From positions 1 through 64,000 of the forward strand of contig NZ_QLMJ01000016.1 of the NCBI RefSeq assembly GCF_003259845.1: a stretch of 64,000 bases of DNA. Direction: 5' to 3'. This DNA is from Actinoplanes lutulentus. GTDB lineage: Bacteria; Actinomycetota; Actinomycetes; Mycobacteriales; Micromonosporaceae. Positions within the stretch are counted from its first letter, which is position 1. Every line of letters begins with the position of its first letter. The notes beneath the pieces are model-generated. The model was given only the letters and a program-made list of their open reading frames with translations, made no database searches and was not told where the DNA came from. A program made the translations under genes and the position numbers. Shown in pieces: positions 41,826 through 60,457 of this stretch.

Positions 41826-41849
41826 CTTTTCGGTACGCGTACCGAAAAG
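41826..41849. promoter_or_regulatory. Perfect 24-bp palindrome upstream of the STM4015 cluster
   Basis: CTTTTCGGTACG is followed directly by its exact reverse complement, with no loop, 88 bp before the GTG of the first cluster gene. A loop-free perfect dyad is what a dimeric repressor would bind, not a terminator. The remaining leader (41857-41882) carries a motif also found at 36815-36838. Confidence 0.75.
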
Positions 41850-41937: not shown

Positions 41938-42858
41938 GTGACCATCAACGAGTTTCTGACGACGTTCGCGGGGCTGCCCGTGGTGGCGGCTGACGCGCCG
42001 GAGAGCCCGGGTGATCCGGGGGCGGTGGCGTGGCGGATCGACATGGAGTATGAAGCGAGCGAGGACGATTTCACCGCCGCGTTCTCGCAGCTCCTGGACC
42101 GGATCGGGCCGCAAGGGCCGACCGCGCTGATCATCGGTGAGTGGGGCGAGGCGAACGACACGCCGTTCCCGGTGGAGCTGCTGGTCGACAACGCGGAGCG
42201 GATGCCGCATCTGAGGGCGCTGTTCATCGGGGAGATGAGCTTCGAGCAGTGTGAGATCTCCTGGATCCAGCAGACCAATCTCACGCCGATCCTGCTCACG
42301 TTCCCGCAGCTGGAGAGCCTGTGGGTGCGCGGGTCGCAGGATCTCGCCTTCAAGAAACGCATCCATCATCAGGGGCTGCGGGAGCTGGTGCTGCAGTCCG
42401 GCGGGCTGCCCGCGAGCGTGGTGGAGAACGTCGCCGGCTGGGACGTGCCCAACCTGACGCATCTGGAGTTGTGGCTCGGCGTCGACAACTACGGCGGTGA
42501 CGCGACCATCGACGATCTGGCGCCGATCCTGGCCGGGCGGTCGCTGCCGGCGCTCACCCACCTCGGCCTGCGCAACGCGGAGATCGCCGACCAGATCGCT
42601 GAGGCGGTCGCGGCGGCGCCGATCGTCGCCCGGCTGACCAGCCTCGACCTGTCGAAAGGCACGCTCGGTGACGCCGGTGGTGAGGCGCTGCTGGCCGGGC
42701 AGCCGCTCACCCATCTGAAAACGCTCGATCTGAGCCACCACTTCCTGTCGCCGGAGCTGGCGCAGCGGATCGTCGAGGAGCTGCCGGGTGTCGCCGTCGA
42801 CGTGTCCGACCGGCAGCAGGAGGAGGAGTGGGGCCGCTACACAGCGGTCTCGGAGTGA
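41938..42858 (+). CDS. STM4015-family leucine-rich-repeat protein
   Basis: 306 aa from a GTG with GAGGGA upstream. After an N-terminal domain (MTINEFLTTFAGLPVVAADAPESPGD to about 85), leucine-rich repeats follow: LESLWVRGSQDL, LRELVLQSGG, LTHLELWLGVDNYGGD, LTHLGLRNAEIADQIAEAV, LTSLDLSKGTLGDAGGEALL, LKTLDLSHHFLSPE. It is soluble and probably cytoplasmic. LRR folds bind protein or peptide, so it may recognise the substrate of the cluster's enzymes. It is the first gene of a five-gene unit always found together in many bacteria (family knowledge). Confidence 0.88.
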   Translation: MTINEFLTTFAGLPVVAADAPESPGDPGAVAWRIDMEYEASEDDFTAAFSQLLDRIGPQGPTALIIGEWGEANDTPFPVELLVDNAERMPHLRALFIGEMSFEQCEISWIQQTNLTPILLTFPQLESLWVRGSQDLAFKKRIHHQGLRELVLQSGGLPASVVENVAGWDVPNLTHLELWLGVDNYGGDATIDDLAPILAGRSLPALTHLGLRNAEIADQIAEAVAAAPIVARLTSLDLSKGTLGDAGGEALLAGQPLTHLKTLDLSHHFLSPELAQRIVEELPGVAVDVSDRQQEEEWGRYTAVSE

Positions 42859-43865
42859 TGCCTCTCGCCGTCGTCGGTAATCCGGCCAACCGGCGGGTCA
42901 CGCTGTTCCTGGACGCGGTGCGGCGGGCCGGGCTGCCCGCGCCTGAGGTCTATCCGTGGCGTGACGTGCTGGTTTCCGGCCGGGTGCCGGGTCCGGACTG
43001 TCTCGTGCGCATCGATTCGCCGGGTGAGGACGCCGAGGTTGATCAGCTCTTGCGGTCGGGTTCTCCCGCGTTGGACGGGCAGATCCTCGGGACCGCTGCC
43101 GCTTTCGCCGGGCTGCGGGTCGCGCTGGCCCGGGTCGAGGCCGGCGGCGGGACGCTGCTGAACCAGCCCGCCGACATCCTGACGATGACGTCCAAGCCGG
43201 ACTGTCACGCGCTGCTGTCCGCCGCCGGGATCCCGGTGCCGGACGCGCTTCCGCCGGTCAGCGGCTATGCCGAGTTGCGGGCGTCCGGCTGGAACCGCGT
43301 CTTCGTGAAACCCGCCTACGGCTCGTCCGCCTCCGGCGTGCTCGCTCTCGCCGCCTCCGGGCGGCGGGTCATGGCGGTCACCTCGGTCGAGCTCAGCGGT
43401 GGGTTGCTCTTCAACAGCCTTCGGGTACGCCGATACGACGACGAATCCACCATCGCCGCGATCGTCGACGGGCTGGCGCCGGACGGGCTGCACGTCGAGC
43501 GGTGGTTTCCGAAAGCCTCCCTCGGTGACCGGGTCCTCGACCTGCGGGTGCTGGTCATCGCCGGGGAGCCCCGGCACATCGTGGTCCGGACCAGCCGGTC
43601 GCCGATGACGAACCTGCACCTCGGCAACGCGCGCGGTGATGTGGACGCCGTCCGGGCGGCGGCCGGGGAGACGGCGTGGGCGGCGGCGATGGAGACCTGC
43701 GCCCGGGTGGGTGCATTGTTTCCGCGTACCCTGCACGTCGGTGTTGATCTCATGTTCCGGGCGGGGTGGCGTGACCATGCGGTGGCCGAGGTGAACGCGT
43801 TCGGTGACCTGCTCAACGGCCACGACACCTACGGTGACCAGGTGGCGGCGATATGCGTTCGCTGA
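42858..43865 (+). CDS. STM4014-family ATP-grasp-like protein
   Basis: 335 aa. The start shares one base with the previous stop (TGATG). An N-terminal alpha/beta domain (MPLAVVGNPANRRVTLFLDAVRRAGLPAPEVYPWRDVL) precedes an ATP-grasp core: LLNQPADILTMTSKPDCHALLSAAGIPVPDALP, then FVKPAYGSSASGVLAL with the ATP-binding Lys (about 155), and VGVDLMFRAGWRDHAVAEVNAFGDLLN with the metal-binding Glu/Asn (about 315-320). ATP-grasp enzymes join a carboxylate to an amine or thiol. That suggests ligation or peptide modification within this cluster. Confidence 0.88.
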   Translation: MPLAVVGNPANRRVTLFLDAVRRAGLPAPEVYPWRDVLVSGRVPGPDCLVRIDSPGEDAEVDQLLRSGSPALDGQILGTAAAFAGLRVALARVEAGGGTLLNQPADILTMTSKPDCHALLSAAGIPVPDALPPVSGYAELRASGWNRVFVKPAYGSSASGVLALAASGRRVMAVTSVELSGGLLFNSLRVRRYDDESTIAAIVDGLAPDGLHVERWFPKASLGDRVLDLRVLVIAGEPRHIVVRTSRSPMTNLHLGNARGDVDAVRAAAGETAWAAAMETCARVGALFPRTLHVGVDLMFRAGWRDHAVAEVNAFGDLLNGHDTYGDQVAAICVR

Positions 43866-44650
43866 TCGGCACCCATGATCTGCTGTTCGTCACCTTGGAC
43901 ACGCTGCGGTACGACGTGGCGGCGCGCTGCCTCGACCAGGGCCGGACGCCGCGGCTGGCGGCAGTGCTGCCCGGCGGGGTGTGGCAACGGCGGCACACGC
44001 CGGCGAGTTTCACCTACGCGGCACATCACGCGTTCTTCGCCGGATTCCTGCCCACGCCGGTGACGCCGGGGCCGCACGAGCGGTTGTTCGCGGCCCGGTT
44101 CGGCGGCAGTGAGTCCAGCGGGCCGGACACGTTCGTCTTCGACGCGGGCGACCTGCCGGCGGGGCTGGCCGCGGCGGGCTATCACACGGTCTGCCTGGGC
44201 GGGGTGGGGTTCTTCAACCCGGCGGCGCCGCTCGGGCGGGTGCTGCCGGGGATGTTCGCGGAGTCCCACTGGTACCCGTCGTTCGGGGTGACAGCGGTGG
44301 ACGGTCTGGGGGCGCAGATCGGGGTTCTGTCAGCGGTTCTCGATCAGGTTGACGCCGGTCAGCCTGTGTTCACGTTTCTCAATGTCGCCGCTCTGCATCA
44401 GCCGAACAAGCACTACGTTCCGGGAGCCCCGGCCGACTCCGTGGAGACTCAGGCCGCTGCCCTGGAGTACGTCGACGGCCAGCTCGATCGGCTGTTCGGC
44501 CTGGTCGCCGGGCGGGGGCGGCCCTGCCAGGTGATCATCTGCTCGGATCACGGGACGCTGTACGGCGAGGACGGGCACGTGGGGCATCGGGTCGCGCACG
44601 AGACGGTGTGGACGGTGCCGTACGCCGACTTCGTTCTGGATCCGGCATGA
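43853..44650 (+). CDS. STM4013/SEN3800-family hydrolase, alkaline-phosphatase fold
   Basis: 265 aa, overlapping the previous gene by 13 bases. It begins with HDLLFVTLDTLRYDVAARCL (metal Asp near 16) and ends with the fold's second metal site, CSDHGTLYGEDGHVGHRVAHETVW (about 229-252). The usual sulfatase CxPxR is absent. HTPASFTYAAHHAFFAGF lies at that place, so Thr or Ser may be the nucleophile, as in phosphatases or phosphotransferases. No signal peptide, hence cytoplasmic. The family's substrate is not known to me. Confidence 0.88.
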   Translation: MRSLIGTHDLLFVTLDTLRYDVAARCLDQGRTPRLAAVLPGGVWQRRHTPASFTYAAHHAFFAGFLPTPVTPGPHERLFAARFGGSESSGPDTFVFDAGDLPAGLAAAGYHTVCLGGVGFFNPAAPLGRVLPGMFAESHWYPSFGVTAVDGLGAQIGVLSAVLDQVDAGQPVFTFLNVAALHQPNKHYVPGAPADSVETQAAALEYVDGQLDRLFGLVAGRGRPCQVIICSDHGTLYGEDGHVGHRVAHETVWTVPYADFVLDPA

Positions 44651-45939
44651 CGTCGCCATATCAGGGCTATCTCTACGCCTATCCGCACAAGACCGCCTAT
44701 CGGAAACTCGAACCGCGGCCGCTGCTGAGTGACGTGTGGGGAGCCGAACGGCAGGACGCGCTGTTCGGGTACGTGCATCTGCCGTTCTGTGAGATGCGGT
44801 GCGGGTTCTGCAACCTGTTCACCCGGGCCAATCCTCCCGAGGAGCAGGTTCGGGCGTACCTCACGCAGCTGCGCCGGCAGGCGCACGAGGTTCGATCCAG
44901 CCTCTCCCCCGAGGCGTCGTTCTCGCAGCTGGCGATCGGGGGCGGCACGCCGACCTATCTCACCGCCGCCGAGCTGACGTCGCTTTTCGAGATCGTCTCG
45001 TCGGCGTTCGGTGACTCGCTGCCGTTGTCGGTCGAGACGTCGCCGGCCACCGCCACGCCGGATCGGCTCGCGGTGCTCGCGGCGCACGGCACCACCCGGA
45101 TCAGCATGGGTGTGCAGAGCTTCCTCGACAGTGAGGCGCGGGCCGCCGGGCGGCCGCAACGGCTGACCGAGGTGCACGCCGCGCTGGAAGCGATCCGGGA
45201 CAGCCGGATTCCGGTGCTCAACGTCGATCTGATCTACGGGATCGACGGGCAGACCGCGCAGACGTGGCAGCACTCGCTGGACGAGGCGCTGCGATGGCGG
45301 CCCGAGGAGCTCTATCTGTACCCGTTGTACGTGCGGCCGCTGACCGGGCTCGGGCGGCGGGCCGCCACCCGGGACGATTGGGATCGGGACCGGCTGGCGC
45401 TGTACCGGCAGGCCGTGGCGGTGCTGACCGATGCCGGATATGTGCAGCAGTCGATGCGGCAGTTCCGGCGGGCGGACGCGCCTGTCGTGGAGGGGCCGGA
45501 TTACTGCTGCCAGGACGACGGGATGATCGGGCTGGGGTGTGGCGCGCGGTCGTATACGACGTCGCTGCACTACTCGTTCGACTACGCCGTCGCGGTTTCG
45601 GAGGTTCGCGCGGTCATCGATGACTACCTGTCACGGCCGGCCGGGGATTTCCGGTACGCGGAGATCGGGTTCCGGCTCGATGAGATCGAGCAGCGGCGGC
45701 GATGGTTGCTGAAGTCGTTGTTGCGCGCCGACGGCGTGGACTCCGCCGCATATCAGGCACGCTTCGGCACACGGCACGACGAGGACTTTCCGCAGCTGTC
45801 GACGCTGGTCGACCAGGGCTGGCTGGATTCGTCGCGGACGGTGCTGACCGCGGAAGGACTGGCGTATTCGGACGCCATCGGGCCGTGGCTGGTCTCCGGG
45901 CCGGTTCGGGAAGCGATGCGGGCCTATGTCGTTCGGTGA
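44647..45939 (+). CDS. STM4012-family radical SAM protein (HemW-like)
   Basis: 430 aa from an ATG overlapping the previous stop (ATGA). The [4Fe-4S] cluster motif is FCEMRCGFCNLF (Cys 48, 52, 55). GGGTPTYLTAAEL and STGVQ-like SMGVQSFLDSEARAAGRPQ follow, as in HemW/coproporphyrinogen dehydrogenase relatives. VLNVDLIYGIDGQTAQTWQHSLDEAL completes the barrel. A helical C-terminal domain (about 350-430) follows. It probably starts radical chemistry on a substrate held by its partners; not a haem enzyme by context. Confidence 0.9.
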   Translation: MTSPYQGYLYAYPHKTAYRKLEPRPLLSDVWGAERQDALFGYVHLPFCEMRCGFCNLFTRANPPEEQVRAYLTQLRRQAHEVRSSLSPEASFSQLAIGGGTPTYLTAAELTSLFEIVSSAFGDSLPLSVETSPATATPDRLAVLAAHGTTRISMGVQSFLDSEARAAGRPQRLTEVHAALEAIRDSRIPVLNVDLIYGIDGQTAQTWQHSLDEALRWRPEELYLYPLYVRPLTGLGRRAATRDDWDRDRLALYRQAVAVLTDAGYVQQSMRQFRRADAPVVEGPDYCCQDDGMIGLGCGARSYTTSLHYSFDYAVAVSEVRAVIDDYLSRPAGDFRYAEIGFRLDEIEQRRRWLLKSLLRADGVDSAAYQARFGTRHDEDFPQLSTLVDQGWLDSSRTVLTAEGLAYSDAIGPWLVSGPVREAMRAYVVR

Positions 45940-46801
45940 CGATCTGTATGTGTTGTATCGGGGGCCGCTCGCCAGTTGTAATTACAACTGCCCCTACTGT
46001 CCGTTCGCCAAGCGGGTTGATCCGCCGGAATTGCTTCGCGGTGACAAATCGGATTTAGAGAGATTTGTCGGGTGGGTTCGCGAGACGACGGATCGGCGGC
46101 TGTCCGTGCTCTTCACCCCGTGGGGCGAGGGCCTGACCCGATCCTGGTACCGCGACGCCATCGTCGAACTCTCCCACCTCCCGCACGTGGCCCGGGTCGC
46201 CATCCAGACGAACCTGGCCGCCCGCACCGGCTGGCTGTCGGCGGCGAATCCGCAGGTGGCGGCGCTGTGGGCGACATTTCACCCCGGACAGGTGACCATC
46301 GAACGGTTTCTGTCGCGGTGCCGCGAACTCGACGCCTTGGGCGTCCGGTACTCGGTCGGTGTCGTCGGACTCCCCGCCCACTTCGACGATGCGGTCGCGC
46401 TGCGAGCCGCACTGCCACCGTCGGTCTATCTGTGGATCAACGCCGCCGACGGGCACGTCTACACCGCCGACGAGGAACGGCGGTGGACCGCACTGGATCC
46501 GCGCTTCGGCGACAGCGTCCGGCCGCACGCGTCGCTCGGCCAGCCCTGCCATGCCGGCGAGACCGCGATCTCGGTGCTCGGCGACGGCACGGTGCGGCGC
46601 TGCCATTTCATTCCGGCGCCGATCGGGAACCTCTACGACGGGACATGGCGCGCGGGCCTGCGCCCGCGAGCCTGTGGCAACTCGCTCTGCGACTGCCACA
46701 TCGGCTACGTGCATCTCAAGCCTTTGCAACTGCGCGATGTGTACGCCGATGGGCTGCTCGAACGCATTCCCGCGGTGTGGCCTTTGGAGGTTGTTTCGTA
46801 A
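45926..46801 (+). CDS. STM4011-family radical SAM protein
   Basis: 291 aa, overlapping the STM4012-type gene by 14 bases. The cluster motif SCNYNCPYCPF has Cys 18, 22 and 25. A second Cys group near the C terminus (QPCHAGETAISVLGDGTVRRCHF and RACGNSLCDCHIG) resembles the auxiliary-cluster tail of SPASM-type peptide-modifying radical SAM enzymes. This pattern, with the ATP-grasp and LRR partners, hints at modification of a peptide or protein (inference). It is the last gene of the cluster; a terminator follows at 46915. Confidence 0.9.
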   Translation: MSFGDDLYVLYRGPLASCNYNCPYCPFAKRVDPPELLRGDKSDLERFVGWVRETTDRRLSVLFTPWGEGLTRSWYRDAIVELSHLPHVARVAIQTNLAARTGWLSAANPQVAALWATFHPGQVTIERFLSRCRELDALGVRYSVGVVGLPAHFDDAVALRAALPPSVYLWINAADGHVYTADEERRWTALDPRFGDSVRPHASLGQPCHAGETAISVLGDGTVRRCHFIPAPIGNLYDGTWRAGLRPRACGNSLCDCHIGYVHLKPLQLRDVYADGLLERIPAVWPLEVVS

Positions 46802-52293: not shown

Positions 52294-53685
52294 ATGAGCC
52301 GGCCGGGCAACCCCGACCTCGCTGCCAGCGAATCCCTGCGACTGCTCGGGCCGGCACCCGCCGCCTGGGTGCCACACTTCGCCGGAACCGACCATGACGT
52401 GGCGGTCATCGGTGCCGGTCAGAGCGGGCTGACCATTGGGTACGCGCTACGGCGTGCCGGCATCGAGCGAGTAACTGTGCTCGACGCCTCCGATGGCGAG
52501 CACGTCGGTAGCTGGGCCGCCAAGGCCCGGAACCTGACCCTGCGGACGCCGAAGACGAACCCTGGTCCTGAGCTGGGAAATCCCGCGCTGAGTTTCCGTG
52601 CGTGGTTCGAGGCGCGCGAGGGCGCGGAGGCGTATGCCGCGATCGAACGGATCAGCACCGCCGACTGGATCGGCTATCTGGCATGGTTCCAGCGGCAGGT
52701 GAAGGTGCCGGTGCGCCGGGGTGTCCGGGTGGCGAAGCTGGAACCAGATATCTCCGGGAACATCCGGATTACCACGAGCGACGGCACCATCGAGGTCGCC
52801 CGCAAGGTAATCCTGGCGACCGGCGTCGAAGGCACCGGCGGCCCACGGATCCCCGCCGAGGTGGCCGACCTGTCGCCGTCCGTTTTCGCCCACACCGGAC
52901 ACCAGCTCGACTACCGGACTCTCCAGAACCGGTCCGTCGCCGTTCTCGGCTCCGCCGCCTCCGCGTTCGACGCCGCCGCGACCGCTCTCGAAGCCGGCGC
53001 GTCCGAGGTCCATCTCTTCACCCGCCGGCCCGACCTGATCGTCATCCGCCCCGGCGGCAAAGGCCCGAGCCACGCGCAGGTCGAGACGTTCCACCGGCTG
53101 CCGGACGCCGAACGCTGGCGCCGCCGCTCCGCGTTCACCAGCAGCGTGCCGCTCGACTCGGTGCTGCGCGCCACCGCCCACCCGAACTTCCGGATCCACC
53201 TGGCCGCCCCCTGGACCCGAGCCACCGAGATCGGTGGGCAAGTCAAAATCGAAGCAGCCGACGGTACGCACACCGCGGACTTCGTCATCGCCGGAACCGG
53301 ATATCAGCACGATCCACGGACCCGGCCGGAGCTGGCCGGCATCGCCGACCGGATCGCGCTGTGGCGGGACGTCTACCAGCCGCCGGCCGCGTACGAGTCG
53401 GAGCATCTCGGGGCGTTCCCGTACCTGGGTGCCGGTTATCAGCTGACCGCCCGCGACGCCGCGGACGCCGCGTGGGTGCCGAACATCCACGTCTTCAACG
53501 CCGCCGCCAGCCAGAGCTTCGGCCTGCCGGTCGGTGACGTGCTGAGCCTGCGCGGCGGGGTTCCGCGCCTGGTCGAGACGATCGTCGGCGACCTGGTCCT
53601 GGCCGACCTGGGCCGGGTCACTCCCCCGGCCGGACCCGCCGCCACGCCGTCCCGCGAGGAGTACGAGCACGCCGTCTGGAATTGA
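52294..53685 (+). CDS. FAD/NAD(P)-binding flavin monooxygenase-like protein
   Basis: 463 aa. The FAD-binding GxGxxG is VAVIGAGQSGLTIGYALRRAG (about 36-56). An NADPH-binding GxGxxA-like motif is VAVLGSAASAFDAAATALEAGA (about 215). ADFVIAGTGYQHDPRTRPELAGI is the typical FMO late motif. AGGAGG lies 11 bases upstream of the ATG. Such enzymes oxidise S or N atoms or do Baeyer-Villiger reactions. Placed after the LysR gene and sharing a regulator signal with metQNI, oxidation of an imported sulfur compound is a reasonable guess. Confidence 0.85.
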   Translation: MSRPGNPDLAASESLRLLGPAPAAWVPHFAGTDHDVAVIGAGQSGLTIGYALRRAGIERVTVLDASDGEHVGSWAAKARNLTLRTPKTNPGPELGNPALSFRAWFEAREGAEAYAAIERISTADWIGYLAWFQRQVKVPVRRGVRVAKLEPDISGNIRITTSDGTIEVARKVILATGVEGTGGPRIPAEVADLSPSVFAHTGHQLDYRTLQNRSVAVLGSAASAFDAAATALEAGASEVHLFTRRPDLIVIRPGGKGPSHAQVETFHRLPDAERWRRRSAFTSSVPLDSVLRATAHPNFRIHLAAPWTRATEIGGQVKIEAADGTHTADFVIAGTGYQHDPRTRPELAGIADRIALWRDVYQPPAAYESEHLGAFPYLGAGYQLTARDAADAAWVPNIHVFNAAASQSFGLPVGDVLSLRGGVPRLVETIVGDLVLADLGRVTPPAGPAATPSREEYEHAVWN

Positions 53686-53733
53686 CGGTTCAGCGGGCTG
53701 CGCGCCGATCCTCCGTCGAGGACACTCTCTCGC

Positions 53734-54846
53734 ATGGCAGACGTGACAGTGCTCGGCGCCGGGGCCGCGGGTCTCGCCGTGGCCGCTCAGCTGACGGCGC
53801 GCGGCGTGGACAGCGTCGTGCTGGAACGCGGCCCGGGCGTGGCGTCCAGCTGGCGTGGCCGGTACGACAGGCTGCGGCTGCACACCATCCGCGGCCTGTC
53901 CGGCCTGCCCGGCATGCCGATCCCCCGCGAGTACGGCCGATGGGTCAAGAAGGACGACCTGGTGCGCTACCTGGAGGCGTACGCACGGCGTTTCGCTCTC
54001 GACGTGCGCACCCAGACGACGGTGACGAGCGTGAAGCCCGGCGCCGACGGCTGGTCGCTGCGGCTGGCGGACGGCTCCGAGCACGCGACCCGGACCCTGG
54101 TCGTGGCGACCGGATATCTGCACACGCCGGTCGTGCCGCAATGGCCGGGCCGCGAGGAGTGGACCGGCACGCTGCTGCACTCGTCGCGGTACCGCAACGC
54201 CGGCCCGTTCGCCGGCAAGGACGTGCTGGTGGTCGGCCCGGGCAACAGCGGCGCCGAGATCGCCACCGACCTGGCCGAGGGCGGCGCCGCCTCGGTGAGC
54301 CTGGCGATCCGCACGCCGCCGCACATCGTGCGCCGCGAGACGGCCGGCTGGCCCGCGCAGATGAACGGCCTGATCCTGGGCCGCCTCCCGGAACGCGTCT
54401 TCAACACCCTCGCCGCCACGATGGGCCGGATGGAGATGCCGGACCTGCGACCGTACGGAATCGACCGCCCGGTGACCGGGCTGAAGACCCGGCTGCGCAC
54501 CGAGCGGTACGTGCCGGTGCAGGACGTCGGCATCGTGCGCGACGTGATCGCCGGCCGGGTCCGCCCGGTCGCCGCGGTGCGAGGTTTCGACGCGACATCG
54601 GTGCTGCTCGCGGACGGCACCAGCCTGCGACCGGACGTGGTCGTCGCGGCCACCGGGTACGGCACCGGCCTGGGCGAACTCTTCGACGACCCGTCGCTGT
54701 TCGACGAGACCGGGGTCCCGCACGTGCACGGCGGTCCGGCCGCGCGGCCCGGGCTCCACTTCCTCGGGTACGACGTGACACTGGGCGGCATGCTGCGCCA
54801 GATCGCGATCGAGTCCCGCCGTGTCGCCCGGGCCGTCACCAGCTAA
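53734..54846 (+). CDS. FAD-dependent monooxygenase (FMO/YUCCA-like)
   Basis: 370 aa. The FAD motif VTVLGAGAAGLAVAAQLTARGVDSVVLERGPGVASSWRGRYDRLRLHT is at the N terminus. The NADPH motif is VLVVGPGNSGAEIATDLAEGG (about 164-184). VVVAATGYGTG precedes the C terminus. It is smaller than the first monooxygenase but of the same class, and follows it by 48 bp. Either the pair act in sequence or one is a paralogue with a different substrate. Confidence 0.87.
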   Translation: MADVTVLGAGAAGLAVAAQLTARGVDSVVLERGPGVASSWRGRYDRLRLHTIRGLSGLPGMPIPREYGRWVKKDDLVRYLEAYARRFALDVRTQTTVTSVKPGADGWSLRLADGSEHATRTLVVATGYLHTPVVPQWPGREEWTGTLLHSSRYRNAGPFAGKDVLVVGPGNSGAEIATDLAEGGAASVSLAIRTPPHIVRRETAGWPAQMNGLILGRLPERVFNTLAATMGRMEMPDLRPYGIDRPVTGLKTRLRTERYVPVQDVGIVRDVIAGRVRPVAAVRGFDATSVLLADGTSLRPDVVVAATGYGTGLGELFDDPSLFDETGVPHVHGGPAARPGLHFLGYDVTLGGMLRQIAIESRRVARAVTS

Positions 54847-54856
54847 GCCCGGGCCG

Positions 54857-55474
54857 TCAAGAGCTGAGCCGGTCGCGGGCCGAGGCGAACCCCAGCCAGG
54901 TGTGCCGGTTGCCGGCCCAGCACCAGCCGACCTTCGGCGCCCGCCGCCGGGCCGTGCCGTCACGCCCGGTGCCGCCGCTGATCCAGATGGCCGGCGTCCG
55001 GGCGTCGAGGCCGGTTCGGCTGCGTTTGCGGTCGCCGATGGTCATGAAGCAGTGGTTGGGTTCGAGCACCTTCGGGTCCTGCAGCAGCCAGCTGATGCCC
55101 TCGTTCACGGTGAGTGGCGTCCGCCCGCGTTCCCGGATCACCGGCAGCGCCTCGGTGGGGCTCCAGTTGCGCATGTCGTCGCCACGGTCGGGCTCGCGGA
55201 TCAGGTAGAGCGGGCGATCGGGCAGGTCCAGACCTTCGATCGGTACGAATTCCTCCAGGTCGGTCATGTCCTCGACGACGAAGCCGGGTTTGTCGTCGCG
55301 GCGCAGCAGCGGCGCCAGTTGACGGGCCGTGGCCAGTGCCGGATGCACGACCAGCACGCTCTGCGGCTCGTCGGGCAGCGCGGCGACGCAGGCGGTGAGT
55401 TCTGCCGCGCTGCGGCCGGTGACGTCGGCGACGCCGGCTTCGAGCAGGCGGTGGAGCTGGCGGTTCACGCTCAT
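54857..55474 (-). CDS. DUF5701-like protein
   Basis: 205 aa, soluble. It begins MSVNRQLHRLLEAGVADVTGRSAAELTACVAALPDEPQSVLVVHPALATARQLAPLL. The middle PLYLIREPDRGDDMRNWSPTEALPVIRERGRTPLTVNEGISWLLQDPKVLEPNHCFMTIGDRKR is highly ordered, and the C terminus has WCWAGNRHTWLGFASA. It resembles DUF5701, widespread in actinobacteria with no assigned function. It converges with the monooxygenase gene (11 bp apart). Confidence 0.65.
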   Translation of the reverse strand: MSVNRQLHRLLEAGVADVTGRSAAELTACVAALPDEPQSVLVVHPALATARQLAPLLRRDDKPGFVVEDMTDLEEFVPIEGLDLPDRPLYLIREPDRGDDMRNWSPTEALPVIRERGRTPLTVNEGISWLLQDPKVLEPNHCFMTIGDRKRSRTGLDARTPAIWISGGTGRDGTARRRAPKVGWCWAGNRHTWLGFASARDRLSS

Positions 55475-55510
55475 GCGGTCTCCCGGTGCGAGGTTGATGA
55501 CGGCAGAACA

Positions 55511-55525
55511 CCGTATAGTGTACGG
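55511..55525. promoter_or_regulatory. Dyad CCGTA-N5-TACGG in divergent promoter
   Basis: CCGTA (55511-55515) and TACGG (55521-55525) flank TAGTG. TATAGT (55514-55519) inside it is a good -10 for the AraC gene, placing its start site about 15 bases before the ATG. The gap is only 65 bp, so both divergent genes may be affected. Confidence 0.5.
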
Positions 55526-55539
55526 AGTATTCCCCGCGT

Positions 55540-56388
55540 ATGCTCGCCCGCATGTTCGCGCCGGCTCACGACGACCTCAGCCTCGGCACCTGGCGGCGTG
55601 ATCCGGGGACGGTGGTCCGCCGGGCCGTGTCGGTGCCGGCCGGCGATCTGGGGCCGCTCGCGATCGTGGCCGAGTCGGAGGTGCCCGGCGCGCCGACCGA
55701 CTGGCTGCCGCACGCGCACCCGATGCACGAGCTGGTGTGGGTGCGCGGCGGCACGCTGACCTCGCGGATCGGGAACCGGATCTTCACGGTGCCGGCCGGG
55801 TTCGGCCTGTGGCTGCCCGCCGGGGTGATCCACGGCGGCCGGCTCACGGCGGCCGCCGAACTGCACGACGCCTTCTTCGACCCTGGGCGCACACCCGTCG
55901 AGTTCGCCGGGCCGACGTCGATCACCATGACGCCGCTACTGGAGTCGCTGCTGCTCCGGCTGGCGCGCAGGGACCTCGACGCTGATGCGCGGGCGCGTAC
56001 CGAAGCTGTTGTCTTTGATGTTCTTGATCCTTCGGAGCGGCAGCTCGCGCTGGAGTTGCCCGGGGATCCGCGGATCGACCCGATCGCCGAGGCGCTCCTC
56101 GACGACCCGTCCGACGATCGGGGCCTGCGGGAGTGGGCGGCGCATCTGGGGATGAGTGAGCGGACTATCACCCGGGCGTTCCGGGAAGCGACCGGGCTGT
56201 CGTTCGCGCAGTGGCGGCAGGCGCTGCGGGTGCACGAGGCGCTCGCCCTGCTGTCCGCGGGCGCTGACGTCCGGGAGGTCTCCGAGCAGCTCGGATACTC
56301 CCAGCCGAGCACGTTCATCGCCGCGTTCCGGCGGGTGATGAAGGTGACGCCGGGGCTACTCGCCAAGGCGTCCTCGTCTCAGGCCTGA
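55540..56388 (+). CDS. AraC-family transcriptional regulator
   Basis: 282 aa. The N-terminal cupin sensor has HAHPMHELVWVRGGTLTSRIGNRIFTVPAGFGLWLPAGVIHGG (about 57-100). The C-terminal double HTH is GLREWAAHLGMSERTITRAFREATGLSFAQWRQALRVHEALALLSAGADVREVSEQLGYSQPSTFIAAFRRVMKVTPG (about 197-274). It precedes the iron-siderophore importer genes, in the same direction, across 105 bp. Control of that importer by a siderophore ligand is possible, as for many AraC regulators next to FecB-type genes. The ATG at 55552 is an alternative start. Confidence 0.88.
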   Translation: MLARMFAPAHDDLSLGTWRRDPGTVVRRAVSVPAGDLGPLAIVAESEVPGAPTDWLPHAHPMHELVWVRGGTLTSRIGNRIFTVPAGFGLWLPAGVIHGGRLTAAAELHDAFFDPGRTPVEFAGPTSITMTPLLESLLLRLARRDLDADARARTEAVVFDVLDPSERQLALELPGDPRIDPIAEALLDDPSDDRGLREWAAHLGMSERTITRAFREATGLSFAQWRQALRVHEALALLSAGADVREVSEQLGYSQPSTFIAAFRRVMKVTPGLLAKASSSQA

Positions 56389-56425
56389 TGTCCGGATTCC
56401 CGTATCGCCTGTCCTGAGTGCGGGA

Positions 56426-56476
56426 TTGCCGACAAGTTGATCATCACCTAGCCTCCGTAAGGCAAGGCAACCCTTA
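56426..56476 (+). promoter_or_regulatory. Iron-box-like operator and promoter of the siderophore importer
   Basis: TTGCCG (56426-56431) and TAGCCT (56449-56454) are 17 bp apart. Starting 2 bases later, TAAGG-N9-CCTTA (56458-56476, 19 bp; arms extend to GTAAGG/CCTTAC) has the layout of a DtxR/IdeR iron box and covers the likely start site. Repression under iron sufficiency is expected. Confidence 0.72.
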
Positions 56477-56493
56477 CTTATGGAGCCCCTCCC

Positions 56494-57324
56494 ATGTCCC
56501 CTGTCTTCCTCCGTGGTGAACAGCTGCTGCTTCGCTACGGGAAGACCGCGGTGGTGCACGGCGTCTCGGTGACCCTGGCGCCCGGCCAGGTCACGGCGCT
56601 GGTCGGACCGAACGGCAGCGGCAAGTCCACGCTGCTGCGCGCCCTCGCCCGCCTGCATCGCGTCGACGACGGCGAGGTGCTGCTCGACCAGCGCGCCGTG
56701 TCACTGCTCACCGCGCGGGAGTTCGCCCGCGAGGTCACCCTGTTCTCGCAGTCCCGGCAGGCCCCGCACGGCCTGACCGTGAGCGAGGTCGTCGCGTTCG
56801 GCCGCCATCCGCACCGGCGCCGTTTCGCCGGGCCGTCCGCCGCGGACCGCGACGCCGTCGATCGTGCGATGGGCGTCACCGGCGTGCGGGACATGGCGCA
56901 GCGGGCGGTCGGCGAGCTCTCCGGCGGCGAGATGCAGCGGGTGTGGCTCGCCGCCTGCCTGGCGCAGGAGACCGGCGTCGTGCTGCTCGACGAACCGACC
57001 AACCACCTCGACCTGCGCTATCAGATCGAAACCCTCGATCTGGTACGGGATCTCGCCGACGACCACGGCGTTGCCGTCGGCATCGTGCTGCACGACCTCG
57101 ACCATGCCGCCCGGGTCGCCGACACCCTCGTGCTGCTGCACGCCGGGCGGGTCCACGCGGCCGGCGATCCCGTCGAGGTGCTCACCGCCGAGCATCTCAG
57201 CGAGGTCTACGGCCTGCGCGTCGAGGTCGAGGCCGACCCGCGGTCCGGGCGGCTGCGCATCGACCCTGTCGGGCGGCATCCCGCCCGCAATCGGAAATTC
57301 GCATCATCTAAAGAAGGACTCTGA
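56494..57324 (+). CDS. Iron-siderophore ABC transporter ATP-binding protein (FecE/FepC type)
   Basis: 276 aa. Walker A GPNGSGKST (about 37-45), Q-loop FSQSRQAPHGLTVSEVVAFGRHPH, signature LSGGEMQRVWLAACL, Walker B VVLLDEPTNHLD and H-loop LHDLDHA are present. The GRxPH motif and short length are typical of the FecCD-partner ATPases. It powers the fused permease two genes on. Start ATG at 56494; the next gene shares one base with its stop (TGATG). Confidence 0.93.
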   Translation: MSPVFLRGEQLLLRYGKTAVVHGVSVTLAPGQVTALVGPNGSGKSTLLRALARLHRVDDGEVLLDQRAVSLLTAREFAREVTLFSQSRQAPHGLTVSEVVAFGRHPHRRRFAGPSAADRDAVDRAMGVTGVRDMAQRAVGELSGGEMQRVWLAACLAQETGVVLLDEPTNHLDLRYQIETLDLVRDLADDHGVAVGIVLHDLDHAARVADTLVLLHAGRVHAAGDPVEVLTAEHLSEVYGLRVEVEADPRSGRLRIDPVGRHPARNRKFASSKEGL

Positions 57325-58376
57325 TGAAATCCCTCATCCGCCTCGCGGCGCTCGCCGCGACGGTCGCCGTGACCGTCACGGCCTGTGGCACCACCGAGGT
57401 CGAGGAGCCGGCCGCCGCCGGCTCGGCCGCCCCGACGTCGCAGACCTGTGCCGACGACACCACGACGACCGCGACCGGCCCGGTGTCGATCACCGACGGC
57501 GTCGGCCGCACGGTGGAGCTCGCCAAGCCCGCCCAGCGCGTCGCGGTGCTGGAATGGCAGCAGACCGAGGACCTGCTGACGCTGTGCCTCACCCCGGTCG
57601 CGGTCGCCGACGCCAAGGGGTACGGCACGTACGTGAAGGCCGAGACCCTGCCGGCCGACGTCGTCGACACCGGCGAGCGCGGTGAGCCCGACCTCGACGC
57701 GCTGTACGCGACGAACCCCGACCTGATCGTCGTCGAGGCGTACAAGGCCGACGACGAGATGATCACCAAGCTGGAGAAGCGGGGTGTGCCGGTGCTCGCC
57801 ACGGTCGGCGCCGACGCGTCCGGCCAGATCGCGAACATGAAGAAGGTCTTCTCGATGATCGGTACGGCCACCGGCCGCACCGAGCGCGCCGACCTGGTGC
57901 TCAAGCAGTTCGACGAGCACCTCGCCGAGGCCAAGGCGAAGGTCGCGGCCGCCAAGGTGACCGCCACCGACTTCCTGTTCTTCGACGGCTGGATCGAGGG
58001 CGGCAACGTGGTCATCCGCCCGTACGGCAAGGGTGCCCTGTTCACCGAGCTCGGCGAGCAGCTCGGGATGACCGCGGCCTGGACCGACAAGATCAACGCC
58101 TCGTACGGCAGCGGCGGCGTCGACCCGTCGTACGGTCTCGCGCAGACCGACATCGAAGGCCTCACCGCGGTCGGCACCGCGACCCTGTTCTACTCCGACG
58201 ACGAGACGCCGGACAGCTACGTCAAGGAACTCGTGAAGAGCCCGATCTGGACGGCACTGCCGGCCGTGAAGGAGAAGCGCGCGTACTCCTTCCCCGCCGG
58301 TGTCTGGGGCGCCGGTGGCCCGCTCTCCAACGAGCAGGCGATCGACGCGTACGTGAAGATCCTGACCCAGGCGTGA
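57324..58376 (+). CDS. Iron-siderophore-binding lipoprotein (FecB/FepB type)
   Basis: 350 aa. Signal peptide with lipobox LAATVAVTVTACG (Cys about 21). The periplasmic-binding fold of class III begins PVSITDGVGRTVELAKPAQRVAVLEWQQTEDLL and includes NPDLIVVEAYKADDEMITKLEKRGVPVL. It is lipid-anchored and would deliver ferric siderophore to the fused permease. Tightly coupled to both neighbours (TGATG, GTGA). Confidence 0.92.
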   Translation: MKSLIRLAALAATVAVTVTACGTTEVEEPAAAGSAAPTSQTCADDTTTTATGPVSITDGVGRTVELAKPAQRVAVLEWQQTEDLLTLCLTPVAVADAKGYGTYVKAETLPADVVDTGERGEPDLDALYATNPDLIVVEAYKADDEMITKLEKRGVPVLATVGADASGQIANMKKVFSMIGTATGRTERADLVLKQFDEHLAEAKAKVAAAKVTATDFLFFDGWIEGGNVVIRPYGKGALFTELGEQLGMTAAWTDKINASYGSGGVDPSYGLAQTDIEGLTAVGTATLFYSDDETPDSYVKELVKSPIWTALPAVKEKRAYSFPAGVWGAGGPLSNEQAIDAYVKILTQA

Positions 58377-60457
58377 GCGACACCCGGGTGCGGCGGGCAC
58401 TGCCCGCCGTAGGGCTCGGGCGCGGCGCGAGCGGGGCGGCCGTCCTGGCCGCCCTGCTCGTCGTGGTCGTCGCGACCGGTCTGTGGCACGTCACCCAGGG
58501 CACCTCCGGTGTCGGATTCTGGGATCTGGTCCGCTTCGTGTTCGGCGCCCGGGAGCAGGTCGGCGGCGTGCCGATCGCCGACGTGGTGACCGGCTCGCGG
58601 CTGCCGCGGGTGTTCGCCGGGATCGCCGTCGGAGTGGCGCTCGGCGCGGCCGGGGCGCTGCTGCAGTCGGTCACCCGCAACGCGCTCGCGGCCCCCGACA
58701 CCCTCGCCGTCACCGCCGGCTCGTACTTCGCGCTGTGCGCGGTCGCCGCGTTCAACCTCACCGTGCCGCTCTGGGCCTCCGGCGCCGTGGCCTTCGCCGG
58801 CGGTCTGCTCGCCGCGATCCTCGTGCTCGGCCTCGTCGGCAGCGCCTCGGGCATCGCCTCGACCCGGCTGATCCTGGCCGGCTCGGCGGTCGCGATGGCC
58901 CTCGATGCCGCGACAGCGACCCTGCTCATCCTCTTCAAAGAAAACACCACAGGTCTGTACGCCTGGGGCAGCGGTTCCCTGGCACAGCTGAACATCGACG
59001 CCGCTCTGCGTGCCGCCCCGGTCATCGCCGTCACGCTCGGCGGGGCCCTGCTGCTGGCCCGCCGCCTCGACGTGCTCGGGCTCGGTGACGACACGGCCGC
59101 CTCGCTCGGTGTGCCGATCCGCTCGACCCGGATCCTCGCGATCCTCGGCGCCGTCCTGCTGACCAGCATCTCAGTGACCCTGGCCGGGCCGATCGCCTTC
59201 GTCGGGCTGGCCGCGCCGGTCGCCGTACGCCTCGTCGCGAACCGCATCGGCGTACTGAGCCGGCACCTCTTCCTGATCCCCGCCTGCGGGCTGGTCGGGG
59301 CGCTGTTCGTGCTGCTCGCCGACGCGGTGCTGCGTGCCGTGATGGGCGCTCAGGCGGCCGCCTCGATCCCGACCGGCATCCCGACATCGCTGCTCGGCGC
59401 CGTCGTCATCGTGGTTCTCGCTCTGCGGCTGCGCGACGCCGGATCAACCCGGGAAGCGCCCCGCGCCCGGGTCGCGGTCCGCTCCCGGCGGCGCTTCCTG
59501 ACGGTCACCGTCGTCGCCGCCGTGCTGCTCGTCGCGGCGGTGACCGCCGGACTGCTGGCCGGCAGCCTGTGGCTGCGGACCGGCGACCTCGCGCTCTGGC
59601 TGCAGGGCACCGCGCCGGACCTGATCGGGCGGGCGCTCGACGACCGGGCACCGCGGGTCGCGGCCGCCGTGGTCGCCGGTGCGGCGCTGGCCCTGGCCGG
59701 AACCGTCGTGCAGGGCACGGTCCGCAACCCCCTCGCCGAACCGGGCGTCCTCGGCATCACCGCCGGCGCCGGCCTCGGCGCGGTGATCGTGGTGACGTCG
59801 GATCTGCCCGGCGGGCGGACCACGCTGATCGTCACGGCTGTCGTGATGGGGCTGGCCACGTTCGGGCTGATCACGCTGCTGGCCTGGCGTGGAGGGTTGC
59901 TGCCGGACCGGTTCCTGCTGATCGGCATCGGCTGCGGTTATGCGCTCACCGACATCAGCACGTTCCTACTTCTGCGCGCCGACCCGTGGGACACGCCGCG
60001 GATCCTCACCTGGCTGTCCGGTACGACGTACGGCCGGACCTTCGACGACGTGCTGCCCGTCGTCGTCGTGCTGGTCCTGGCCGTGCCCGTGGTCTTCGGG
60101 ATGCGCCGGGAACTCGATCTGCTGTCGATCGACGAGGACACCCCGCGGATCTTCGGCGTTCGCCGGGAACGGACGCGGTTCGTGCTGCTGACCATCGCGG
60201 CACTCGCGGCGGCGGTCAGCGTGACCGCGGTCGGGGTGGTGGGCTTCGTCGGGCTGGTCGCGCCGCACATCGCCCGGAGCCTCGTCGGGGTCGGGCATCG
60301 GCGGATCATCCCGGTGGCGATGCTGCTCGGTGGCCTGCTGGTCTGTGTCGCTGACGCTCTCGGGCGTACCGTCATCGCGCCGTCGCAGATCCCGGCCGGG
60401 CTGATGATGGCGCTGGTCGGGGCGCCGTATTTCGTGTGGTTGTTACGCCGATCCTGA
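58373..60457 (+). CDS. Fused double FecCD-type siderophore permease (FhuB-like)
   Basis: 694 aa from a GTG overlapping the previous stop by 4 bases. Two FecCD domains lie in tandem. The first (about 15-345) has VTGSRLPRVFAGIAVGVALGAAGALLQSVTRNALAAPDTLAVTAGSY, and the second (about 375-690) has APRVAAAVVAGAALALAGTVVQGTVRNPLAEPGVLGITAGAG. Each half repeats the GFVGLVAP (or AFVGLAAP) segment near its end. About 20 helices in all. Most siderophore importers use two separate permeases; this is a single chain, as in FhuB. No third permease gene is present. Confidence 0.92.
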   Translation: MSDTRVRRALPAVGLGRGASGAAVLAALLVVVVATGLWHVTQGTSGVGFWDLVRFVFGAREQVGGVPIADVVTGSRLPRVFAGIAVGVALGAAGALLQSVTRNALAAPDTLAVTAGSYFALCAVAAFNLTVPLWASGAVAFAGGLLAAILVLGLVGSASGIASTRLILAGSAVAMALDAATATLLILFKENTTGLYAWGSGSLAQLNIDAALRAAPVIAVTLGGALLLARRLDVLGLGDDTAASLGVPIRSTRILAILGAVLLTSISVTLAGPIAFVGLAAPVAVRLVANRIGVLSRHLFLIPACGLVGALFVLLADAVLRAVMGAQAAASIPTGIPTSLLGAVVIVVLALRLRDAGSTREAPRARVAVRSRRRFLTVTVVAAVLLVAAVTAGLLAGSLWLRTGDLALWLQGTAPDLIGRALDDRAPRVAAAVVAGAALALAGTVVQGTVRNPLAEPGVLGITAGAGLGAVIVVTSDLPGGRTTLIVTAVVMGLATFGLITLLAWRGGLLPDRFLLIGIGCGYALTDISTFLLLRADPWDTPRILTWLSGTTYGRTFDDVLPVVVVLVLAVPVVFGMRRELDLLSIDEDTPRIFGVRRERTRFVLLTIAALAAAVSVTAVGVVGFVGLVAPHIARSLVGVGHRRIIPVAMLLGGLLVCVADALGRTVIAPSQIPAGLMMALVGAPYFVWLLRRS

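Follow-up and report, generated by a model that had tools for sequence, protein, structure and literature searches.

What does a leucine-rich repeat (LRR) protein contribute to a gene set that otherwise encodes an ATP-grasp ligase, a hydrolase and two radical S-adenosylmethionine (SAM) enzymes? This question is raised by the STM4015-STM4014-STM4013-STM4012-STM4011 cluster of Actinoplanes lutulentus, which lies in the window analysed here, i.e. the 64,000 nucleotides at positions 1 to 64,000 of contig NZ_QLMJ01000016.1. As a gene set the cluster is known, its members being present in NCBIfam as the STM4011-STM4015 families, but it is uncharacterised. These are mostly 'hypoth_equivalog' entries without a described function, and the window holds an ordinary member. 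What is new is evidence for STM4015 as a probable substrate or carrier, and not a recognition factor. We assign a probability of about one half to the reading in which STM4015 serves specifically as a carrier or substrate whose terminal Glu is loaded by STM4014 before the other three enzymes act.

All five genes adjoin each other on the forward strand, and the encoded proteins exceed the cut-offs of their NCBIfam models, which places them in the STM4011-STM4015 set. The LRR protein STM4015 (41938..42858; 306 amino acids, GTG start) reaches 362 bits against NF038076 (cut-off 275), in addition to LRR matches in Pfam. It is followed by the ATP-grasp ligase STM4014 (42858..43865; 335 amino acids; NF038074, 388.6 bits, cut-off 175), the alkaline-phosphatase-fold hydrolase STM4013 (43853..44650; 265 amino acids; NF038075, 391.6 bits, cut-off 250; PF00884), the HemN-like radical SAM enzyme STM4012 (44647..45939; 430 amino acids; NF006067, 609.5 bits, cut-off 380) and a second radical SAM enzyme, STM4011 (45926..46801; 291 amino acids; NF038073, 385.2 bits, cut-off 200). 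A first-pass annotation, made from the letters alone, had named the same five families, their coordinates, overlaps of 1, 13, 4 and 14 bases between successive genes and an actinobacterial host. The profile searches confirm the families, the coordinates and overlaps are exactly as it reported, the tight coupling of the genes is borne out by these overlaps, and the closest STM4012 matches are from Actinoplanes (83%).

The C-terminus of STM4015 provides the first line of evidence. In the window, the protein ends in the heptapeptide RYTAVSE (residues 300-306; 42835..42855, forward strand), in which Glu306 is the proposed attachment or modification site. The actinobacterial sample consists of 80 named loci and the window. 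All 128 intact STM4015 copies examined terminate in [VILMY][SAGT]E with Glu as the very last residue, mostly as RYxAVSE. Position -3 is Val in 117 of these copies, position -7 is Arg in 107, and position -6 is aromatic in 123, the residues other than Tyr at this position being Phe (19), Trp (2), Asn (2), Ser (2) and Val (1). The stretch that precedes the tail is acidic and variable in both length and sequence. The pattern was composed after inspecting the tails, so that 128/128 describes the family rather than tests it. Three broken or truncated open reading frames (ORFs; L034_8333, L071_4445 and L075_7903) had been excluded beforehand; for L071 and L075, the tail can be recognized in a different reading frame. 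None of the 316 other cluster proteins fits the pattern, and the 118 fits among 5477 ORFs of at least 100 amino acids in the loci are nearly all STM4015 copies. At the DNA level, the tail pattern occurs once in the genome of A. lutulentus, in the STM4015 gene of the window, but the reversed control also occurs once and the chance expectation is therefore not zero.

STM4015 matches that were obtained later behave similarly. The pattern is present in 22 of 24, and in five of six new copies of the f18 family. This is the only check that is partly independent; most of the matches derive from Micromonospora genomes that had been used before or are related to these. Both misses among the 24 are off-cluster. 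Of the off-cluster copies, one ends in RYVAAGE and thus keeps the Glu while missing the pattern (L163), one has no tail (L143), and two keep the tail, from S. cadmiisoli and from Calothrix, the latter with no cluster gene within the stretch read. The S. cadmiisoli copy (L155:5863-6825) stands alone, 27 kb from the cluster and near AAA-ATPase and TOPRIM genes. The first-pass annotation had also suggested looking around cluster copies for a small conserved peptide gene. No tail-bearing ORF outside the LRR family was found in the 81 loci by the strict pattern, ORFs below 60 amino acids being searched by the tail pattern only. An exception is a 45-residue ORF just 5' of STM4015 in Micromonospora avicenniae (L052:6987-7124), which combines an STM4015-like N-terminus with the tail-like end DYSVVGE. 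This ORF, found likewise in L010 and L133, is probably a deletion remnant.

The second line of evidence is copy number. STM4015 is multiplied in 21 of the 81 loci, with two to five copies each, whereas each of the other cluster genes never exceeds a single copy. Across 58 pairs of STM4015 paralogues, the identity is 58% in the body and 25% in the linker, but 81% in the tail. In peptide-modifying systems, a gene that is present in several copies usually encodes the substrate, and by this logic the multiplied STM4015 would be the substrate as well. The conserved tail and the copy number thus favor a substrate or carrier over the recognition subunit that the first-pass annotation had envisaged.

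A candidate ligase for such a tail is encoded by the next gene. The structural model of STM4014 is closest to ArgX-LysW (3vpb), LysX and RimK. ArgX, LysX and RimK are ligases that act on the C-terminal Glu of a carrier. The LysW analogy had been framed before the fold search was made, and a weak RimK-like match was already present in the profile search. The catalytic residues are intact: K113, K151, D297, E311 and N313 are invariant in 39 STM4014 sequences and correspond to the two Lys, the Asp and the ExN motif of ATP-grasp enzymes as described in the consulted part of PMC4431377. In a separate set of seven STM4014 sequences, E311 is replaced by Asp in Paenibacillus. For the LysW system, the consulted part of PMC10433800 reports that LysX uses the gamma-carboxyl group of the last Glu of LysW, and that an ArgW E54A mutant is auxotrophic.

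By analogy, STM4015 may be viewed as an LRR body that is connected via an acidic linker of variable length to a C-terminal heptapeptide with an invariant terminal Glu. STM4014 would activate the carboxylate of this Glu and join it to an amine. The SPASM-like STM4011, the HemN-like STM4012 and the phosphodiesterase-like STM4013 with its presumed Thr nucleophile would next work on the group thus attached, or directly on the tail. The computations show the gene set, the tail, the asymmetry in copy number, the intact catalytic residues and the fold of STM4014; the tail as acceptor, the bond and the order of steps are inferred. The first-pass annotation had considered the modification of a peptide or protein as the likely theme, and this is supported. 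A more far-reaching version, which we put forward tentatively, is that the LRR protein serves as the workbench on which a new kind of post-translational modification or cofactor synthesis takes place. In this version, the C-terminal Glu is loaded by the LysX/RimK-like ligase, and the load is remodelled by the two radical SAM enzymes and the phosphodiesterase-like enzyme and then either kept on the protein or released as a cofactor. Genomes with several LRR copies would in this case present one and the same group on several distinct LRR bodies.

Several observations weigh against a loaded tail. Residues 301-306 of STM4015 are predicted to be ordered, with a mean predicted local distance difference test score of 88. 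The fold closest to the STM4015 model is PDB 2ra8, a protein from Bacteroides fragilis (Q64V53_BACFR) that belongs to the same family and has a 362-residue chain whose native part ends in YPMITE; the alignment extends through the C-terminal residue of the model, and the tail is apparently resolved in the crystal. A text search for 2RA8 found no paper among open-licence PMC papers. Furthermore, two motifs around residues 104-110 and 263-271 are more conserved than the tail, the surface-like motifs EISWI and HHFLS being at least as conserved, and the tail-recognition motif of LysX, GSWGR, is present in none of the 39 STM4014 sequences. These findings make a structural or docking role a live rival, in which the C-terminus only packs against the LRR body or serves as a docking site for enzymes that produce a small molecule, with STM4015 as scaffold or regulator. 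The N-terminal WGR domain that Bacteroides members additionally carry would fit such a role. However, a packing element would not require that Glu is the last residue in every intact copy, without any extension and behind a variable linker, and a scaffold encoded two to five times next to single enzyme genes would be unusual. We consider a structural or docking tail less likely than a loaded one.

In STM4013, T54, D16, D232, H233, H245 and H249 are invariant in seven sequences, and the protein aligns with NPP phosphodiesterases. A sulfatase is rejected because CxPxR is missing from the nucleophile stretch, where Thr54 takes its place in 7/7 sequences, in line with the doubts already raised by the first-pass annotation. 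STM4013 relatives without the rest of the set occur in L118, L120 and L122 and belong to other systems. In Streptomyces albidoflavus (L118:4848-8889), the relative (46%) is located beside a different radical SAM protein and beside genes of thymidylate-kinase-like and NUDIX type, and the lack of the other four STM genes suggests that the hydrolase is used there in another system.

STM4012 contains a CxxxCxxC motif (C48/C52/C55) and resembles the HemN and NosN/NocN radical SAM enzymes, with profile matches to the PDB entries of HemN (1olt, E 2e-53) and NocN (9p2u, E 9.4e-33), yet its scores are far below the cut-offs of the HemN model (130.8 versus 324.95 bits) and of the HemW model (132.4 versus 205.4 bits). 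By this score, STM4012 does not classify as a HemN coproporphyrinogen oxidase. Its C-terminal residue is Arg in 79 of the 81 loci. A known defence system was likewise considered and set aside; PADLOC returned a single weak match, to STM4012 only (PDC-M51A, 30.1 bits).

In STM4011, the radical SAM cysteines C18/C22/C25 and the SPASM-like cysteines C208, C226, C250, C255 and C257 are invariant in seven sequences, and the C-terminal part matches SkfB (6efn, E 9.5e-5). By its motifs, CxxxCxxC plus auxiliary-cluster cysteines, STM4011 is a candidate SPASM radical SAM peptide maturase. These features would also suit a cofactor derived from a ribosomally synthesized and post-translationally modified peptide (RiPP), for which the radical SAM enzymes would cross-link or alter tail residues that are later excised, while the LRR body would act as an unusually large leader, as in the formation of pyrroloquinoline quinone (PQQ) from PqqA and of mycofactocin from MftA. 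Glu and Tyr are the building blocks of PQQ, and mycofactocin arises from a conserved C-terminus; the near-constant aromatic residue at -6 and the Glu at -1 of STM4015 are reminiscent of both. The aromatic residue is not strictly Tyr, however, a LysX/RimK-like ligase is not obviously needed for a RiPP, and neither a short precursor bearing the tail pattern nor a RiPP recognition element was found, although no search was aimed at the latter. Moreover, none of the five genes encodes a peptidase, which speaks against excision and is the reason why, for STM4015 as a loaded carrier, the pathway may end with the modified LRR protein. Overall, we regard a RiPP cofactor as unlikely.

The distribution of the genes indicates that they belong together. 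The complete set is present in 71 of the 81 actinobacterial loci, including the window. Of the ten incomplete loci, four are cut off where their contig ends (L063, L082, L107, L109). The other six do not contain STM4014, which is located elsewhere in the genome in all six cases. This, and the one to five copies of STM4015, is at odds with the 'fixed stoichiometric system' suggested by the first-pass annotation. Four families were searched in 249 genomes of the order, where weak ATP-grasp matches (E<=0.001) occur in 120 genomes; STM4014, STM4015, STM4011 and STM4013 exceed their cut-offs in the identical 12, and STM4012 adjoins the other genes in all of these (L004-L015). One further genome contains an STM4013 relative below the cut-off (128 bits). 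For the phylum, 366 genomes were covered, and STM4015 and STM4011 are likewise present in the identical 6. The association is thus not due to chance, and a RimK-like polyglutamylation or simple amino-acid tailing of the LRR protein, with the radical SAM enzymes in an unrelated co-regulated pathway, is improbable because the coincidence in exactly the same 12 genomes argues for one pathway.

Absence of the set from other genomes, which would have refuted the first-pass annotation, is thus not observed, and the set also occurs outside actinobacteria. All five genes are present in 12 of 18 stretches from plasmid records or a viral collection, namely two from Salmonella, three from Deinococcus, two from Streptomyces, one each from Paenibacillus, Methylobacterium, Nonomuraea and Embleya, and L151, which has no taxonomy. 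L152 and L155 contain STM4015 only. The Salmonella plasmid records show the same gene order as the window, and the Salmonella region is largely present in none of 5426 complete Escherichia coli genomes at megablast sensitivity, 94 of which match part of a HAD gene only. In Salmonella (L114:9907-10641), this phosphatase gene of the HAD type (Hydrolase_3) overlaps with STM4011, and in Bacteroides-type copies (L119:7325-8890; L151:5611-7161) the two are fused. A Bacteroides finegoldii plasmid (L119) was rejected as a complete set, since only residues 1-73 of STM4013 and 376-424 of STM4012 are kept, which corresponds to a deleted set. A complete Bacteroides-like set is L151, a contig of the viral collection. 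One relative was found among viral contigs.

In 41 of the 81 actinobacterial loci, a DUF6745 protein is encoded at most 10 kb from the cluster, and a protein of approx. 100 amino acids (GEVTGHAH...HEEH) accompanies it in 40 (flanks of L036-L113). The pair also adjoins the cluster in Deinococcus, Methylobacterium and Streptomyces, and DUF6745 has a conserved end of its own, YxPxx[EQ][TA]. In A. lutulentus, the DUF6745 site is outside the window (G000:C16:223771-224412). DUF6745 was rejected as an obligate sixth member, because it is present in only one of the 12 cluster genomes of the order sample and in six genomes without the cluster. A text search of open-licence PMC papers found no functional paper on DUF6745, which is not proof of absence. 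Upstream of the cluster, 88 bases 5' of the first gene, the perfect 24-base palindrome CTTTTCGGTACGCGTACCGAAAAG (41826..41849) is a possible operator. It has seven sites with at most two mismatches in its own genome, versus none for the reversed control, and is absent from all 18 Actinoplanes-type loci examined. Further downstream (52294-60457), a Lys/Orn monooxygenase-like flavin adenine dinucleotide protein and a long FecCD permease ORF possibly form an iron-siderophore locus.

Text searches with the STM names, the family names and combinations of LRR with radical SAM, RiPP or ATP-grasp found no described function, as the first-pass annotation had presumed; they covered open-licence PMC papers only and are not proof of absence. 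In the consulted parts of two papers, single STM genes are listed in tables only, and the graspetide and CDC123 papers, as far as consulted, do not mention the five-gene set under the terms tried. The carrier reading converts five families of 'function unknown' into one testable proposal that names a protein and a residue, namely the LRR protein and the Glu at its C-terminus. If true, it would also explain why the LRR gene is the sole member of the set that multiplies.

Among known systems, the cluster resembles LysW/ArgW with LysX/ArgX, where an invariant C-terminal Glu on a protein is likewise combined with an ATP-grasp ligase of the same fold. The differences are nevertheless clear. LysW-type carriers are defined, in the consulted part of PMC10433800, by an EDWGE tail and a small Zn-binding Cys body, whereas STM4015 consists of an LRR body with a RYxAVSE-like tail; STM4014 lacks the GSWGR of LysX, and the cluster adds two radical SAM enzymes and an alkaline-phosphatase-fold hydrolase. 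The pair of RimK and ribosomal protein S6 differs in that an LRR protein is the partner in the present cluster, which also comprises additional enzymes. With PqqA/PqqE and MftA/MftC, the cluster shares a SPASM-type radical SAM enzyme and a conserved peptide end, but its five-gene unit contains neither a short precursor nor a peptidase and includes an ATP-grasp ligase. Thus, the cluster may work like LysW/LysX or RimK/S6 while being a member of neither by the motifs tested. If this holds true, the carrier-protein logic of LysW would also cover a folded LRR protein as well as radical SAM chemistry, and would do so in at least five phyla-level lineages.
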